A stretch of DNA of 35,626 nt, taken from the IMG/VR virus record IMGVR_UViG_3300014720_000006, positions 1 through 35,626 of that record; one strand, written 5' to 3'. This document shows positions 1,578 through 31,647 of this stretch, piece by piece (the first letter of the stretch is position 1; each line of letters starts with the position of its first letter). Made by a program: the position numbers and the translations under genes. The DNA comes from a virus. Below the pieces are notes generated by a model. It worked only from the letters and a program-made list of their open reading frames with translations. It did not search any database and was not told where the DNA came from.

Positions 1578-1744
1578 GTAAACAGCTCGACGGGGGTACT
1601 CAGCTGCAAATCTGCCCAGAGTGTCACGTTGCCGTGCTCCGAGTGCTTGAGGACACTCCGCTTGCCAGGCTATCAAAGTGCCCGACCTGTGGTTTCATGG
1701 TGATCGTTAGAAAGCCACAAAGCGAGGGCCCAAAGGGTCAATAA
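1574..1744 (+). CDS. Zinc-ribbon micro-protein, 56 aa
   Basis: A GTG start overlaps the previous TGA (GTGA) with a G-rich ribosome site just upstream. The protein has two cysteine pairs, CPEC at residues 14-17 and CPTC at 36-39, spaced as in a rubredoxin-like or treble-clef zinc ribbon. It overlaps the end of the oppositely oriented phosphoesterase gene by 38 bases. Too small for an enzyme; more likely a zinc-stabilised binding module. Two CPxC pairs at this spacing are unlikely by chance, which is the main support. Confidence 0.65.
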   Translation: MSKQLDGGTQLQICPECHVAVLRVLEDTPLARLSKCPTCGFMVIVRKPQSEGPKGQ

Positions 1745-2654
1745 TCCCGACCCCTTGCGTCCAGTCCGTGATCTTTTGCGGCGTATAACTCAAGCCTTTG
1801 CTCGCGGGGTCGGCAAGGTAGCCACAGTTTAGCTCGAAGTAAGTCTTGCCGCGAATATGTTTAAACGCCACGCCCCCCCTGTGGGAGTGTCCGACTACGG
1901 CGTTGTGCATCATGTAGCTTGCATGGTCCCCTAGTTTGGTGCGGTAGCCATGCAGAAAGGCAATGCCGTCGATAATGAGTTCCTCGCGGTGGTCGGCGAT
2001 GAGTTCAACGCCGGGGAAGGTGAAGAAGCGATCAAGCTCGATAAACACTTCAAGCGCAGGCGCGACTTCGAGGACGCGCTTTAACGGTCGAATGTCATGG
2101 TTTCCGCGGAGCTGTATTTTCCGGGCCTGTGGCGCAAGCTTCCCGATCTCCGCCCACATGGCTTTTGCGTTCTCGAAAGACTTTTCAATCTCTCCCTTTG
2201 GAGTGAAATGCATTTGGCTTGTGGGGAACTTAGACCACGAAAGCATATCGTGAAGGTCGCCCATCTGGATCACTACCGTGGGCTTGATCTGCTCTATGAT
2301 GCGGTAAACGCGCTCGAGTGCCCTTGGATCGCAGAACGGGTGATGAGTGTCTCCCAGGCACACAATCGTGTTCTGAATCGGTACAGGGGCTTCTACGGGC
2401 TCGAGGGGCGGGCGCGCCTGCTGTAGCTCCAAGTGCTCGTCAATGTTTCGACGCATGAACGGCGTACGGTCGCGCTTGCGAGGGTGATAGCTCTCAAGGC
2501 CCGCAGCTTGAAGCATCGCTGAATAACCGCCAAAAGCTTGTCTGATTTTGCTGCGGCTATTTGCAACTTGGTCGTCAAACTCATCCCGCGTAGGCGTTCG
2601 GCCCAGCTCAACCGCAAGTTGTTTTAAAATAACAATAAGTTCGTGGGCGTCCAT
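1707..2654 (-). CDS. Metallophosphoesterase with N-terminal homing-endonuclease-type repeat
   Basis: The calcineurin-like core has all the expected metal motifs, numbered from ATG 2654: GDTHH 101-105, GDLHD 132-136, GNHD 184-187, LHG 234-236 and GHSH 255-258. Such enzymes hydrolyse phosphomono- or diesters, including nucleic acids in SbcD/Mre11-type members. Residues about 17-53 (GRTPTRDEFDD through AMLQAAGL) resemble the small DNA-binding repeat found beside HNH homing endonucleases. The 315-residue form starts at ATG 2654; a TTG four codons earlier is open and neither has a clear ribosome site. It is the only leftward gene in the early block. Probably a DNA-directed phosphoesterase; substrate unknown. 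Confidence 0.85.
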   Translation of the reverse strand: MDAHELIVILKQLAVELGRTPTRDEFDDQVANSRSKIRQAFGGYSAMLQAAGLESYHPRKRDRTPFMRRNIDEHLELQQARPPLEPVEAPVPIQNTIVCLGDTHHPFCDPRALERVYRIIEQIKPTVVIQMGDLHDMLSWSKFPTSQMHFTPKGEIEKSFENAKAMWAEIGKLAPQARKIQLRGNHDIRPLKRVLEVAPALEVFIELDRFFTFPGVELIADHREELIIDGIAFLHGYRTKLGDHASYMMHNAVVGHSHRGGVAFKHIRGKTYFELNCGYLADPASKGLSYTPQKITDWTQGVGIIDPLGPRFVAF

Positions 2655-2657
2655 GTC

Positions 2658-2684
2658 TTGACACAAGCGTGTCTGTATTACATT
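2658..2684 (+). promoter_or_regulatory. Candidate promoter for the gene at 2710
   Basis: A perfect TTGACA (2658-2663) is followed after 15 bases by TACATT (2679-2684). It lies in the short gap between the divergent genes starting at 2654 (leftward) and 2710 (rightward). The stretch TGTATTAC here recurs just before the gene at 3394. The short spacer lowers confidence. Confidence 0.4.
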
Positions 2685-4638: not shown

Positions 4639-4713
4639 TGGGGGGCAGCATGATGGTCATGCACCACACTGTTAATGTGGCCTATGTGGGTTCGAGTCCT
4701 ACCCCCCCAGCCA
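4639..4713 (+). tRNA. tRNA-Asn (anticodon GUU), CCA encoded
   Basis: A full cloverleaf can be drawn. The acceptor UGGGGGG (4639-4645) pairs with CCCCCCA (4703-4709). The D stem is GCAU/AUGC (4648-4651, 4659-4662) and the anticodon stem CCACA/UGUGG (4664-4668, 4676-4680) has loop CUGUUAA, so the anticodon at 4671-4673 is GUU. The T stem is GUGGG/CCUAC with loop UUCGAGU; the discriminator is G and CCA is encoded at 4711-4713. Position 8 is C instead of the usual U, which may weaken the U8-A14 tertiary contact. It lies within the early transcript and is followed by a terminator. Confidence 0.93.
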
Positions 4714-25859: not shown

Positions 25860-26149
25860 TATAGAATGCTCCAGTCGCTTATGAAGTTCTTGGTGGAGTC
25901 GGTATAGTTAATGGTAACCGTCCGAACGATGGCACTGTTCTTTCGGTAAATATATATCTCTTGTGTGGCTGACGCATAGCTAACCTGCGCTTCGTCATAA
26001 TCAGACGGAACGGCAGCCGTACCCACAATGATCGTTCCGCCAACAATGTTAGCGTCAAGTGCAACCTTGTCGCCAATGGCGGTGCCGGTTGCAATTTGCG
26101 CCTCATTCGGCCCAGAGTTTGATTGCGGGTAAAGGTCAATTCTACTCAT
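25859..26149 (-). CDS. Hypothetical beta-rich virion protein, 96 aa
   Basis: It has a 4-base overlap with the previous gene (ATGA). The C-terminal half has a strand pattern ATQEIYIYRKNSAIVRTVTI and INYTDSTKNFISDWSIL. Similar 'IYxYRxxxxVxTVTVxYTD' segments recur in phage structural proteins of this region in my recollection. Probably a capsid- or tail-associated protein. Confidence 0.6.
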   Translation of the reverse strand: MSRIDLYPQSNSGPNEAQIATGTAIGDKVALDANIVGGTIIVGTAAVPSDYDEAQVSYASATQEIYIYRKNSAIVRTVTINYTDSTKNFISDWSIL

Positions 26150-26511
26150 CGGCGCTTATCGTGGAATACGCTAAACACTACCGTTGCCGTGGTTGTTCCG
26201 CCAGTCAACGTCCAAGAAAACCTGACGTTGCCGTAAACCGGCGCGGTGTTAGCAATCTCTTTTAACATAATTCCGATAGCAGCAAGGCCAGCTCCGCCGC
26301 TCACGGTTTCAAGAGTTGCCGCCGTCTTCCAGTTTGTCTTGTTGGGCGAGTGTTGAAAGTTAACGCTCAGGCTAGTTCCTGCTCCTAGAGCACTGACTTC
26401 AACCGTTGGAATAAGGTCAGTTACGTACATCTCAAGGCTAAACGCTTCAGTCTGCCCGCTTGCGCCTGATATGCCGCCAGAAAACGCCACAACTTTATTT
26501 ACACTTGCCAT
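26146..26511 (-). CDS. Hypothetical beta-rich virion protein, 121 aa
   Basis: GGGAGA lies before ATG 26511. The protein has beta-sandwich-like strands (AFSLEMYVTDLIPTVEV, LSVNFQHSPNKTNWKTAA, VRFSWTLTGGTTTATVVFSV). It follows the tRNA-like element in the late operon. A head decoration or tail-completion role is possible. Confidence 0.6.
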   Translation of the reverse strand: MASVNKVVAFSGGISGASGQTEAFSLEMYVTDLIPTVEVSALGAGTSLSVNFQHSPNKTNWKTAATLETVSGGAGLAAIGIMLKEIANTAPVYGNVRFSWTLTGGTTTATVVFSVFHDKRR

Positions 26512-26527
26512 GATTCTCCCTAGTTAG

Positions 26528-26607
26528 GCGCGGAGATCGGAGTCGAACCGATGACTGGCTGGGAAGCGTCCTTGCTCCAACCCGCTCTACCGCTGAGCTA
26601 CCCCGCG
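26528..26607 (-). tRNA. tRNA-like element with aberrant anticodon arm (possible pseudo-tRNA)
   Basis: Three of the four arms are canonical on the minus strand. Acceptor CGCGGGG (26607-26601) pairs with CUCCGCG (26535-26529, one G-U pair). U8 and A9 are present, the D arm is GCUC/GAGC with loop AGCGGUA, and the T arm is AUCGG-UUCGACU-CCGAU. Between D and T arms lie 30 bases (26582-26553) that do not form a 5-bp stem with a 7-base loop. They fold instead into GGUUGG/CCAGCC plus an inner helix with loop AAGGAC, or a 16-base loop. No anticodon with U33 can be assigned and CCA is not encoded. It is transcribed with the late operon, between the 111-residue and 121-residue genes. Confidence 0.6.
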
Positions 26608-26618
26608 CCCATACTCTC

Positions 26619-26954
26619 TTAGTATTCGTCTGCGGCGTCAAAGCCTTGTACGATCAAATGAAAATCTGCGTCCTGATCGACACCAGCCGCATCATAAATG
26701 CGAACAGCGACGACCGAAGCCGAAGAGGATTCAATCGAAAGGACAAGGCCAGCAGCGCCATAAATCACGCTGCCAGTAGCAATCGCTTCACGGGCAAAAG
26801 GCTTAGCAAGCGTAATGCTAAAGCGGCCTTGAGCCGTTCTAGCAACCGATGCGTCTTTAGATCCGATCAGCAGGGAAGCACTTCCGCCCGTTCCATCTAC
26901 TTTGAAATGGAGCTGGCGAGGAAGGCGTTGTGGGGACTTGATTTCTCTCAACAT
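26619..26954 (-). CDS. Small virion protein, 111 aa, next to the capsid gene
   Basis: ATG 26954 has GGAGAA 7 bases upstream and is preferred over the start at 26999. The protein is a beta sandwich by pattern (RQLHFKVDGTGGSASLLIG, FSITLAKPFAREAIATGS, VVAVRIYDAAGVDQDADFHL). The tail (DADFHLIVQGFDAADEY) is common in phage proteins just after the major capsid gene. Candidate capsid decoration protein. Confidence 0.7.
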   Translation of the reverse strand: MLREIKSPQRLPRQLHFKVDGTGGSASLLIGSKDASVARTAQGRFSITLAKPFAREAIATGSVIYGAAGLVLSIESSSASVVAVRIYDAAGVDQDADFHLIVQGFDAADEY

Positions 26955-26977
26955 GGTTTGTTCTCCGTGGAACAGCA

Positions 26978-27001
26978 GGGTGAGGGCCGAAGCCCCCACC
27001 C
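26978..27001 (-). promoter_or_regulatory. Strong UUCG-capped hairpin after the capsid gene
   Basis: On the mRNA strand GGGTGGGGGC and GCCCTCACCC pair (10 positions, one A-G/C mismatch) around the very stable tetraloop UUCG. It begins 10 bases after the capsid stop. No U-run follows, so it is more likely an mRNA-stabilising or partial termination element that raises capsid mRNA relative to downstream genes. Confidence 0.6.
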
Positions 27002-27011
27002 GACCGGGTTA

Positions 27012-28220
27012 TTAGACAGCGAGGCCAGAGATCACGCCGTGGAAGCTTGGGACGATGTACGCCTCAAGGTATCCGCCGTAACGTGCTTCGTAGGCGTCCT
27101 GAGAAGCCGTACGAAGGAAGACAGAGCCGTCATCATCGAACCAGCCGAAGTCTGGGCGATGTTTGATCTCAAGGAAGTTGTCATTGAGCATGTACATGCG
27201 GTCTTCTTCCATGAACCGCTCTGGGAACACGCCCACAGGACCTGCCGAGGACATAAACTCCACGCCACGGAAGGACACCTTGCCTTGCAGCTCAGGAGAA
27301 CGGGGCTCGATGATGTATTGCTTTTGGTCTTCGAGCACGTTCAAGAGCTTACGGTACTGAGTGAACGAGGTGAGGATGAGGTTTGGCACCTTCCCGCACT
27401 TACGTTGGATCTCAAGCATCGTTTGGTTCATGATGTCTGGGGTCAGACCAGCTCCGCCTGCTGCAACCTGCGTTGCCTGCCAGCGACGGCCAACCGACAC
27501 GCCGTACTGAGAGCCAGAGGTTGCATCGAGCACGCCCTTAAGACCACTTGGGTCGTTATCTTTGGAGTTTTGCATATAGATAACATCGGTAGCAATCGGA
27601 GTATGCGCTCCAGAAATAAGGCTAAGCCGAACAACTCTGGTTGCTGGAGTGACTTGAGTAACTTCAAAAACTGACGACAATCCGCTAGAAAGATTGACGT
27701 AATCTTTTTCCTCGAAGTTTGCTTCTTTCCAGGTTGCTGCAGAGATAGTGACATCGTGTAATCCTGCAATCGGAAGACCGCTGATTGGGTCTAGAACTGC
27801 GGCAACCGCTTGGATCGTTCCAAGAGCGCCAGAGCCATCGTTGAACAGAGCTCGGCTCATGTTACGCATATAGGACTCAACGCCCTTTTGGACGGTGAAC
27901 TTGGTGAGTTCCACGAAAGCGCCTTCGTTGTTAGACGCAGCTTTGATCGACTCGCGGTCAATCTGGATCACGGAATACATTTTCTTAGCCGTGATCTGCG
28001 CGTCTTGGATTGCTGCATAGTTCGGGGTTGGGAGCGAGCCAGAGCCCACGCCGCCTGCGAACGAGGTCGGAACCGCAATGTCCATGCGCTTACCAGTGAA
28101 GTCGAAAGACTTCTTGGCACGGGCCAGGAGGACGTTTGCAGAGTTATAGGTATTTTCAGAAAGCTTGCCGTACTTAATCTTGAAGAGATTGGTAGCGGTC
28201 GTCAGATTAAACTGAGCCAT
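27012..28220 (-). CDS. Major capsid protein (HK97 fold), 402 aa
   Basis: Order (terminase, portal, scaffold, then this) and size fit the major capsid protein. The N-arm (residues about 1-60), E-loop-like beta segment and the P-domain helix (about 110-135, FTVQKGVESYMRNMSRALF) are visible. The C-terminal A-domain contains LTPDIMNQTMLEIQRKCG and the shell-forming strand region near FMSSAGPVGVFPERF. Cleavage by a protease is not implied because no prohead protease gene is seen. Ribosome site AAAAGGAAC precedes the ATG. Confidence 0.9.
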   Translation of the reverse strand: MAQFNLTTATNLFKIKYGKLSENTYNSANVLLARAKKSFDFTGKRMDIAVPTSFAGGVGSGSLPTPNYAAIQDAQITAKKMYSVIQIDRESIKAASNNEGAFVELTKFTVQKGVESYMRNMSRALFNDGSGALGTIQAVAAVLDPISGLPIAGLHDVTISAATWKEANFEEKDYVNLSSGLSSVFEVTQVTPATRVVRLSLISGAHTPIATDVIYMQNSKDNDPSGLKGVLDATSGSQYGVSVGRRWQATQVAAGGAGLTPDIMNQTMLEIQRKCGKVPNLILTSFTQYRKLLNVLEDQKQYIIEPRSPELQGKVSFRGVEFMSSAGPVGVFPERFMEEDRMYMLNDNFLEIKHRPDFGWFDDDGSVFLRTASQDAYEARYGGYLEAYIVPSFHGVISGLAV

Positions 28221-29397: not shown

Positions 29398-31647
29398 TTA
29401 CAGTCCTCGAGTTGGCTCAACAGGCCCTAACTGGCCCATTAGCTGAGTTTCGAGAGGAGGGGCTTCCGGCATAGCCTCTGCCTCGGGGATGGGTGATTTT
29501 GCCGGATTAGATGGAAGTTGGGTTGCCTGCAAAGGACTTGCTGGCGGCATGGGTTCTTGCATCATGCCCATAGGGACTTGCTCAGGTCCAGCAGGAGCTG
29601 GCGTAGGCATAATCAGATCGGCAGCCTTTACCCGGTAGAACATCGGGAACATTTCGAGCTGCATTAGCATCTGAGCAAATTTAGGGTTCACCTTTGCCTG
29701 CTCGAGCATGAACATTTCGTGCGTAAACACATGATCCACGAGGTTACGCTGCTTTTCTGGCTCAGTCTTATACTTGAAGCTAAACTCTTGAATCTGACGA
29801 GTGTGGACCTTCCAGTGCACAAGGTGATTCTCAAACTCCTCAGGGGCCATAGCCTCCGCTTCGTCAGGAGTCGCCTCAAGTAACTTTTCAGTCTCAGCTT
29901 CAGCGGATCTAACCGCAACAGTCGCTGCATCTACAAACTTATCAGACTGTGCAAGATCAAGCATATCAATAACTTGCTCGCCGGTGAACTTGTCAGGGAA
30001 ACGTTCTGAAAGATCGAGAAGAGTCTGCGTCCGTGCTGCGACCGACTTAGGCAGAGCGGAAGAGTTCTGAATCCGAATGTCATAGTCAGAGTTAAGGTCG
30101 GCAGCCTTAAAGAACTCCGTCATGTATTCGTTATTCTTACCTAATACCCGCACCAGGCGCTTGTCTGACTCGTCGTAATAGTCGTGCGCGACCGAGAGAG
30201 TCATCTCAGCTATCTGACGAATACACTCGTTCCACTTCAACACAAGCTCGTTATACCGCTCAGACTCCTGCTCAGAGAGGAACTGAAGCGCAACCCCTGC
30301 TTTAATACCGGGAGGCGGCTCACCTCGAGACACGCCAAAGACCCCGGAGATTTGTTGGAACTCCTCTTTAAGGTCAGCCCGGAACTTGAACACATCAGCA
30401 GGGACACTTTGAGCCACGGCAAGAGCAGGCGGCTGTGGCCCCTTATACTGCACAATCGTAATGTCATTCCCTAACTTCTGAATATCGGTAGATCCAGCCG
30501 GGACCATCCATTTCGGATGCGATACGAGCAGGATATTCCGCAGAATCATGTTCGTCAGGTTGTTATAGGTGCCCGTCAACCCTTTGATGACTTCAAAGAA
30601 GCTGTGGCCGTAAAGCTCGCCAGGGTAGTCAATGTCGGTAAACCGAACAAACGGAAGGCCCTGGTGCGAGTAAGGCGCCTCTGTATTCTCTAGGATACAG
30701 TCCTTTGTGAACTGAATGATCCGGCCCTTTTCCATGCCAGGCTGTTTCTTGGCAAAGAAGGTAAAGACCGTGCATTCATTCCGAACCGGGCGCAGTTCCA
30801 TCCGGTCATAATCATAGATCTGATCGTTATGCGTCTTAATCTGAGACGCCTTCTCAGGGTACTCGATCCGAAGAGTGTCGCAATTCACCTGCTTCTTCGT
30901 AAAACAATACTTCACCTGCTCAAGCCGTGGCTGCTTATCAAGCAGCACCTCAGGGCTAAGCTCAATTCGGTAGTCTACGTCACCCACTCGCACCGGGCGC
31001 TCGACAAACAGGGGCTTTCCAGACTCGCTTTTGCGCTGCGAGCCGTTCTCATCCATGAGCGGAATCTTAGCGCCGTGTTTTTTCTTCGCCTCAACATAGG
31101 CAGGGCTAAGCGGACCCATGTCCTCGTTCCAGTCGACAAACAAGTAGCTCTCGCCAGTAATCATGGCATGAGTCGCAAGCTCAAGTTGCAAGCGCCCCTC
31201 AAATTCTTGCTCGTACCAGATATGGTCTAAAAGCCCTTTACAGGCTTTAGCCGAAAGTTTGTCCTGTAGCTCATCGTTAGTCGGCAGGACAGCGACAGCG
31301 GGGCGGAACTTAATCAAACGGCTTGCCCGATTCTTCGTCAGGTCAAACAAATGGTTAGCGACAATTTTGCGTAAAAATGTCGACCGATCCGCAGCACGAT
31401 CTCGGTTCTCAGCGCGGGCCTCACTCTCCTGGTACTGAATGCCCTTATATAGCGCCAGGTTGCGCCTCTGAATCCGAATCCTAGGCTCATTCTCATGCTC
31501 GAGAAAGTGAAGCTCAGCCTGAAGCCAATTCAGGATTTCCTTCTCATTCGACGGGTCGTCCAGGTCTAGAGCGTAAATCGGCTTAGATGGCTGAGAGTAA
31601 ACCTTGTCAGAGTTCAAGTCGTCGAAAGAATAGGCAGTCGTGCTCAT
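29398..31647 (-). CDS. Portal protein, 749 aa (podovirus-like)
   Basis: Length and layout fit large podovirus portals: a clip/stem region, LYGHSFFEVIKGLTGTYNNLTNMILRN (residues about 350-376, a central helix) and VSRGEPPPGIKAGVALQFLSEQESERYNELVLKW (about 450-483), a long helix. The C-terminal 80 residues are Pro/Met-rich and probably disordered. It forms the dodecameric DNA gate and binds terminase and adaptor. AAGGTTAA precedes the ATG. It belongs to a family common in environmental podoviruses. Confidence 0.88.
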   Translation of the reverse strand: MSTTAYSFDDLNSDKVYSQPSKPIYALDLDDPSNEKEILNWLQAELHFLEHENEPRIRIQRRNLALYKGIQYQESEARAENRDRAADRSTFLRKIVANHLFDLTKNRASRLIKFRPAVAVLPTNDELQDKLSAKACKGLLDHIWYEQEFEGRLQLELATHAMITGESYLFVDWNEDMGPLSPAYVEAKKKHGAKIPLMDENGSQRKSESGKPLFVERPVRVGDVDYRIELSPEVLLDKQPRLEQVKYCFTKKQVNCDTLRIEYPEKASQIKTHNDQIYDYDRMELRPVRNECTVFTFFAKKQPGMEKGRIIQFTKDCILENTEAPYSHQGLPFVRFTDIDYPGELYGHSFFEVIKGLTGTYNNLTNMILRNILLVSHPKWMVPAGSTDIQKLGNDITIVQYKGPQPPALAVAQSVPADVFKFRADLKEEFQQISGVFGVSRGEPPPGIKAGVALQFLSEQESERYNELVLKWNECIRQIAEMTLSVAHDYYDESDKRLVRVLGKNNEYMTEFFKAADLNSDYDIRIQNSSALPKSVAARTQTLLDLSERFPDKFTGEQVIDMLDLAQSDKFVDAATVAVRSAEAETEKLLEATPDEAEAMAPEEFENHLVHWKVHTRQIQEFSFKYKTEPEKQRNLVDHVFTHEMFMLEQAKVNPKFAQMLMQLEMFPMFYRVKAADLIMPTPAPAGPEQVPMGMMQEPMPPASPLQATQLPSNPAKSPIPEAEAMPEAPPLETQLMGQLGPVEPTRGL

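Follow-up and report, generated by a model that had tools for sequence, protein, structure and literature searches.

RNase P and the 3′ tRNA nucleases naturally act on a complete tRNA body, and a tRNA-like fold can set the ends of a message, as mascRNA does in the nucleus for MALAT1. Downstream of the capsid genes of phage T7, an intrinsic terminator, T-phi, is found. The M3 and C4 RNAs of phages are small RNAs that are recognized mainly through a partial acceptor/T-like fold. These phage RNAs with a tRNA-like part, namely phage M3 RNA and the C4 RNA of P1 and P7, are known to be processed by RNase P (PMC11143913). In mitochondrial tRNA punctuation, a tRNA fold located between messages likewise sets their ends, although these tRNAs are organellar and functional. 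The element described here occupies the spacer behind the capsid genes of a viral contig of 35,626 nt (IMG/VR record IMGVR_UViG_3300014720_000006), the whole of which is referred to as the window.

The tRNA-like element and its surroundings

The element and its neighboring genes all lie on the minus strand and comprise the following features.

27012..28220 (-): major capsid (head) protein gene (phrog_14242, E 3.5e-22)
26619..26999 (-): gene of 126 aa directly upstream of the element, after the capsid gene
26608..26611 (-): 5′ flank TGGG, which could lengthen the acceptor stem to 11 bp (from the sequence and a family-wide tendency, relatedness uncontrolled)
26529..26607 (-): tRNA-like element, core cloverleaf, 79 nt
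26601..26607 (-): acceptor stem, 5′ side CGCGGGG; all seven pairs covary among relatives
26584..26598 (-): D arm, GCTC-AGCGGTA-GAGC
26593 with 26553 (-): tertiary pair G15 with C48; the 15-48 pair covaries in relatives
26553..26583 (-): D-to-T interval of 31 nt, holding the extended, apparently non-decoding hairpin
26577..26582 with 26557..26562 (-): outer helix GGTTGG/CCAGCC of the extended arm
26564..26573 (-): inner hairpin AAG-GACG-CTT of the extended arm, predicted from relatives
26536..26552 (-): T arm, ATCGG-TTCGACT-CCGAT
26529..26535 (-): acceptor stem, 3′ side CTCCGCG
26525..26528 (-): 3′ flank CCTA, which would pair with the 5′ flank TGGG (from the sequence and a family-wide tendency, relatedness uncontrolled)
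26146..26511 (-): gene of 121 aa directly downstream of the element; weak match to a major tail protein family (phrog_9522, E 1.5e-4)

The first-pass annotation, which was made from the sequence alone, had reported canonical acceptor, D and T arms, and these were confirmed for an element at 26529–26607 (minus strand) whose acceptor stem is 7 bp long, or up to 11 bp with the flanks. It had also stated that the 30 bases between the D and T arms cannot form a 5+7+5 anticodon arm; indeed none fits, but the interval comprises 31 nt (tRNA positions 26–48), in contrast to 23 nt normally. The GGUUGG/CCAGCC helix that it had drawn is correct, and RNAfold agrees with the AAGGAC loop that it had placed on a further helix. 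The folding energy of the element is −38 kcal/mol (z = −2.5), a value equaled by none of 200 shuffled sequences.

The Rfam tRNA model RF00005 matches the element at 41.3 bits (cut-off 29, in a search of a short stretch) and leaves the anticodon arm unmodelled; its absence from the hits for the whole window is an effect of filtering. ARAGORN reports “tRNA-??? (agca)” with a misfitted arm and no isotype; when introns are allowed, it forces a 9-nt intron to obtain a tRNA-Lys(ctt) whose loop carries G at position 33. The isotype check proposed in the first-pass annotation thus gave no standard call with a normal loop. A search of the spacer in the window for an intrinsic terminator (a hairpin followed by a U tract) found none. 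Elsewhere in the window, an ordinary tRNA-Asn(gtt) is encoded at 4639–4713 (plus strand), behind a RecT-like gene; it scores 49.7 bits and contrasts with the late element. The gene at 1707–2666 (minus strand) encodes a 319-aa protein that contains a homing-endonuclease-associated repeat (PF18780) and a calcineurin-like phosphoesterase domain (PF00149).

Conservation and covariation of the tRNA core

A search with the capsid protein identified 79 related viral contigs, to which a profile search added more, and the same spacer carries a tRNA-like element in many of these contigs. Searches of cultured phages with the DNA and with the capsid protein gave no match, and the exact arm pattern of the element in the window was not found in viral contigs. 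ARAGORN labels the relatives' elements as Pro, Leu, Ala, Arg, Ser, Val, Phe or unknown and leaves others undetected, and such scattered calls are expected because the arm is not an anticodon arm.

The 33 distinct versions were aligned with an almost gap-free core. Changes on both sides of a pair were observed in all seven acceptor pairs, four of the five T-arm pairs and two of the four D-arm pairs, and also in the tertiary 15-48 pair, which is G-C in 24 versions and A-U in seven. Across the alignment, 99.1% of the core cells are paired, in contrast to 72.2% in shuffled sequences, and this pairing has been kept through 146 double changes. The covariation score of the core is 0.727 as compared with 0.209 in shuffles, a contrast that is inflated by related sequences, and with at most 0.149 in slid versions, a control that preserves relatedness. 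Since the covariation lies far above both controls, the element in the window is more than a chance resemblance, and the comparison of sequences shows a tRNA core that is under selection as an RNA fold. The acceptor and T arms are thus conserved and covary at the related loci, where the first-pass annotation had suggested looking.

The 3′ end of the core is less tRNA-like. CCA is encoded in just three of the 33 versions; CC is present at positions 74–75 in 27, although the flanks there often pair with each other. Flank pairing that lengthens the acceptor stem has a mean score of 6.35 as compared with 4.82 for re-paired flanks (p = 0.0008), in a comparison in which relatedness is uncontrolled and the 3′ flank of one version (L033) was mis-cut. 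A run of eight T behind the acceptor stem is found in L040 and L069 alone.

The replaced anticodon arm

Across the versions, the D-to-T interval is 29–33 nt long, mostly 30–31 nt. Among 34 versions, just zero to three of the five pairs form at the canonical position of the anticodon stem, and U33 is missing from all but two. By contrast, an outer helix of at least five contiguous pairs is present in 26 of the 34, as compared with 3.0 expected after shuffling. In a group of eight versions that aligns without gaps, covariation extends from the outer helix to an inner helix with a GACG cap (88.9% paired; score 0.635, as compared with 0.324 in shuffles). GACG occurs in 24 of the 34 versions, and one sub-group carries a CGCGGCA loop in its place. 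It therefore seems that the decoding arm is swapped for a longer hairpin unable to read codons, which is usually extended and often capped by GACG. A class II tRNA was rejected as an explanation, because no version among the 34 combines at least four arm pairs with U33.

The inner arm sequence is nearly invariant within the sub-group to which the window belongs, so that the GACG hairpin of the window is assigned by analogy. Comparison with relatives favors an inner AAG-[GACG]-CUU hairpin over the AAGGAC loop.

Placement and evolutionary history

In the 30 versions in which distances could be measured, the core begins 7–13 nt behind the upstream stop codon, and 11–23 nt separate its end from the next start codon. 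On the capsid tree, the element is confined to a single clade (support 99), and its distribution requires three changes. It is present in 35 of 38 scorable clade members, the exceptions being L038, L046 and L044. At the identical spot, L038 and L046 carry an intrinsic terminator, in which a run of eight T follows a 14-bp hairpin (z about −4), and the capsid spacer of L044 contains a 15-bp hairpin (z −5.5). Distant relatives that lack the element frequently carry an intrinsic terminator at this position; in others the spacer is short, and several show no structure of any kind at the site. Within the family, distances between elements track those between capsid proteins (Mantel r 0.48, p 0.0005).

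The gene directly behind the element is one of two unrelated genes that alternate among members, starting with MA[SA]V... or, as in L003, L011, L021 and L024, with MTIQQNFQQ.... This alternation right behind the element implies that gene exchange has a joint there. The contig of L037 (30,613 bases) carries a tRNA-like element at both ends (41–119 and 30527–30605), and the two copies probably reflect terminal redundancy of a circular or permuted genome or assembly.

Similar elements at other loci

The contig of L044 encodes an extended-arm tRNA-like element with a 29-nt interval elsewhere (L223:4197–4273, minus strand), where it precedes a replication-initiation gene (phrog_270) on the same strand by approximately 150 nt. 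Outside the capsid family, phages L166/L172 and L190 carry tRNA-like elements with GACG in an extended arm, located between a replication-initiation gene and the small terminase gene. The elements of L044, L166/L172 and L190 do not fit a role at the capsid boundary, and a trans-acting or more general role is therefore kept in consideration.

A broader pattern, consisting of a class I D arm and an interval of 28–34 nt, matched at least 120 stretches of viral contigs, including at least 85 distinct elements with at least six acceptor and four T-arm pairs in varied phage contigs (L229–L342). Among the 85 listed, 23 can be read as tRNAs with inserts (7.5 expected) and five as class II tRNAs. One element with an abnormal arm sits in a tRNA array (L337), and another, in a different phage, lies 32 nt downstream of a major head gene (phrog_10; L278, near 2237–2297, minus strand) and thus likewise behind a capsid gene. 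Other elements follow a tail-like gene (L301), precede terminase genes (L258, L308) or are located near integrases (L256, L273). The broad set is mixed, and only part of it need be of the same kind as the family element. GACG was rejected as a universal motif of such phage elements, since it occurs in 13 of the 85 as compared with 24 of the 34 in the family.

In bacteria, the same pattern gave four matches in 587 genomes, from two phyla, whereas a pattern with the normal interval length matched 99 of 99 bacterial genomes. One of the four matches spans an assembly gap, two lie in what looks like chromosomal DNA and the last lacks a family match in its vicinity; the four therefore do not establish a prophage origin. 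It is tempting to speculate, at somewhat less than an even chance, that these elements represent a widespread and largely phage-specific class of tRNA-shaped RNAs, in which the anticodon arm is rebuilt as a longer non-decoding hairpin and which serve as RNA devices for punctuation or mimicry, hidden among odd or mistyped tRNAs.

Possible roles of the element

The explanation that fits best, to which we give an even chance, is that the element acts in cis as a transcript boundary after the capsid genes, cutting and blocking being taken together. A non-decoding, L-shaped tRNA mimic, presumably co-transcribed within the late mRNA, would mark the border that separates the capsid genes from the virion gene behind them. 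It may be cut out by host tRNA-processing enzymes, with RNase P acting at the 5′ end and another nuclease releasing the 3′ end, or the folded element may block 3′-5′ exonucleases. The capsid message and the downstream message would then have separate fates, and the boundary would either define where the capsid message ends or reduce downstream expression. Owing to its altered arm, the RNA would stay out of translation, yet its core would still be recognizable.

The fixed position and strand of the element and its replacement by terminators or hairpins argue for such a cis-acting boundary. The covariation of all core arms and of the tertiary 15-48 pair also counts in its favor, as does the processing of phage M3 and C4 RNAs by RNase P. 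Its retention while unrelated genes alternate downstream is counted on the same side, as are the capsid-tracking distances together with the terminators of distant relatives, and the extended hairpin, held to its narrow length range in all versions, is counted for a boundary mimic that does not decode. The acceptor-T-arm stack, a feature of RNase P substrates, is present in the element. On the other hand, flanks that lengthen the acceptor stem, and in doing so pair with the CC behind it, should hinder RNase P, and because of this tendency a stable barrier is equally possible. The element found elsewhere in the L044 phage, the other contexts of similar elements in unrelated phages, the scarcity of encoded CCA and the structureless sites of several distant relatives stand against a cis boundary. 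The first-pass annotation had suggested that a tRNA mimic might serve RNA processing between the capsid-side genes; this proposal fits best of its three and gains support from nested relatives that carry terminators at that very site, but the second location in one relative leaves room for a trans role.

According to that alternative, which is unlikely but deserves serious consideration, the element is an excised, stable small RNA that occupies host tRNA-handling proteins (processing or CCA-adding enzymes, synthetases or a tRNA-targeting defence), and the late operon is merely a strong source. Conservation of the entire tertiary core, beyond that of a mere stable hairpin, is consistent with such a mimic, as are the position upstream of the replication-initiation gene in the L044 phage, whose capsid spacer contains a plain hairpin, and the other contexts of related forms in unrelated phages. 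However, a trans role does not need a position that is fixed to the base of the clade, or terminators and hairpins where copies have been lost; the arm and its loop vary so widely that nothing but the tRNA body stands out as a shared target, and a decoy for anticodon nucleases would need the anticodon loop that the element lacks.

The remaining explanations have little probability. A functional tRNA whose anticodon loop carries an insert or a small intron, and which is either spliced or read as an unusual tRNA, would account for the ARAGORN intron call in the window and for the excess of readable elements in the broad set, but excision restores a decoding loop in just three of the 34 family versions (2.3 expected), U33 is nearly always missing, the forced intron leaves G33 in the window, and the outer and inner helices covary as a single extended hairpin; this reading, raised in the first-pass annotation, is disfavored and very improbable. 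Equally improbable is a feature of the DNA itself, for example a conserved recombination joint, which would suit the two alternating gene starts behind the element, since compensatory changes in every arm show that selection acts on the RNA fold and not on the identity of the DNA. The decay of a tRNA gene acquired from a host, also suggested at first, would agree with the odd or mistyped ARAGORN calls; it is excluded for practical purposes by the maintenance of core pairs throughout a deep clade and is refuted by the covariation in every arm, unless the alignment is an artefact.

Comparison with known systems

If the cis-acting boundary is correct, a natural RNA keeps the whole tRNA body and abandons decoding at a site where relatives use a terminator, and tRNA mimicry is linked to the control of virion gene expression. 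The results also suggest that some phage genes called as “tRNA-Pro” or “tRNA-Ser,” or called without an isotype, are perhaps non-decoding and should be excluded from codon-usage arguments. A description of such extended-arm phage tRNA-like elements was not found in the open-access literature on extended anticodon stems, phage tRNA-like RNAs and tRNA punctuation.

The element shares with class I tRNAs (RF00005) the acceptor, D and T arms, G18G19, the T-loop motifs, the 15-48 pair and a variable loop of 4–5 nt. It differs from them in that the 17-nt anticodon arm is replaced by an extended arm of approximately 25 nt without U33, which would not permit decoding, and in that CCA is mostly not encoded. 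As compared with the M3 and C4 RNAs, the element is a complete cloverleaf core in an operon spacer, and its cleavage there is only proposed. Mitochondrial punctuation and mascRNA resemble it by analogy only. Intrinsic terminators of capsid genes occupy the same genomic place and replace the element in L038 and L046; by contrast, the element in the window is a four-way junction with no U tract.
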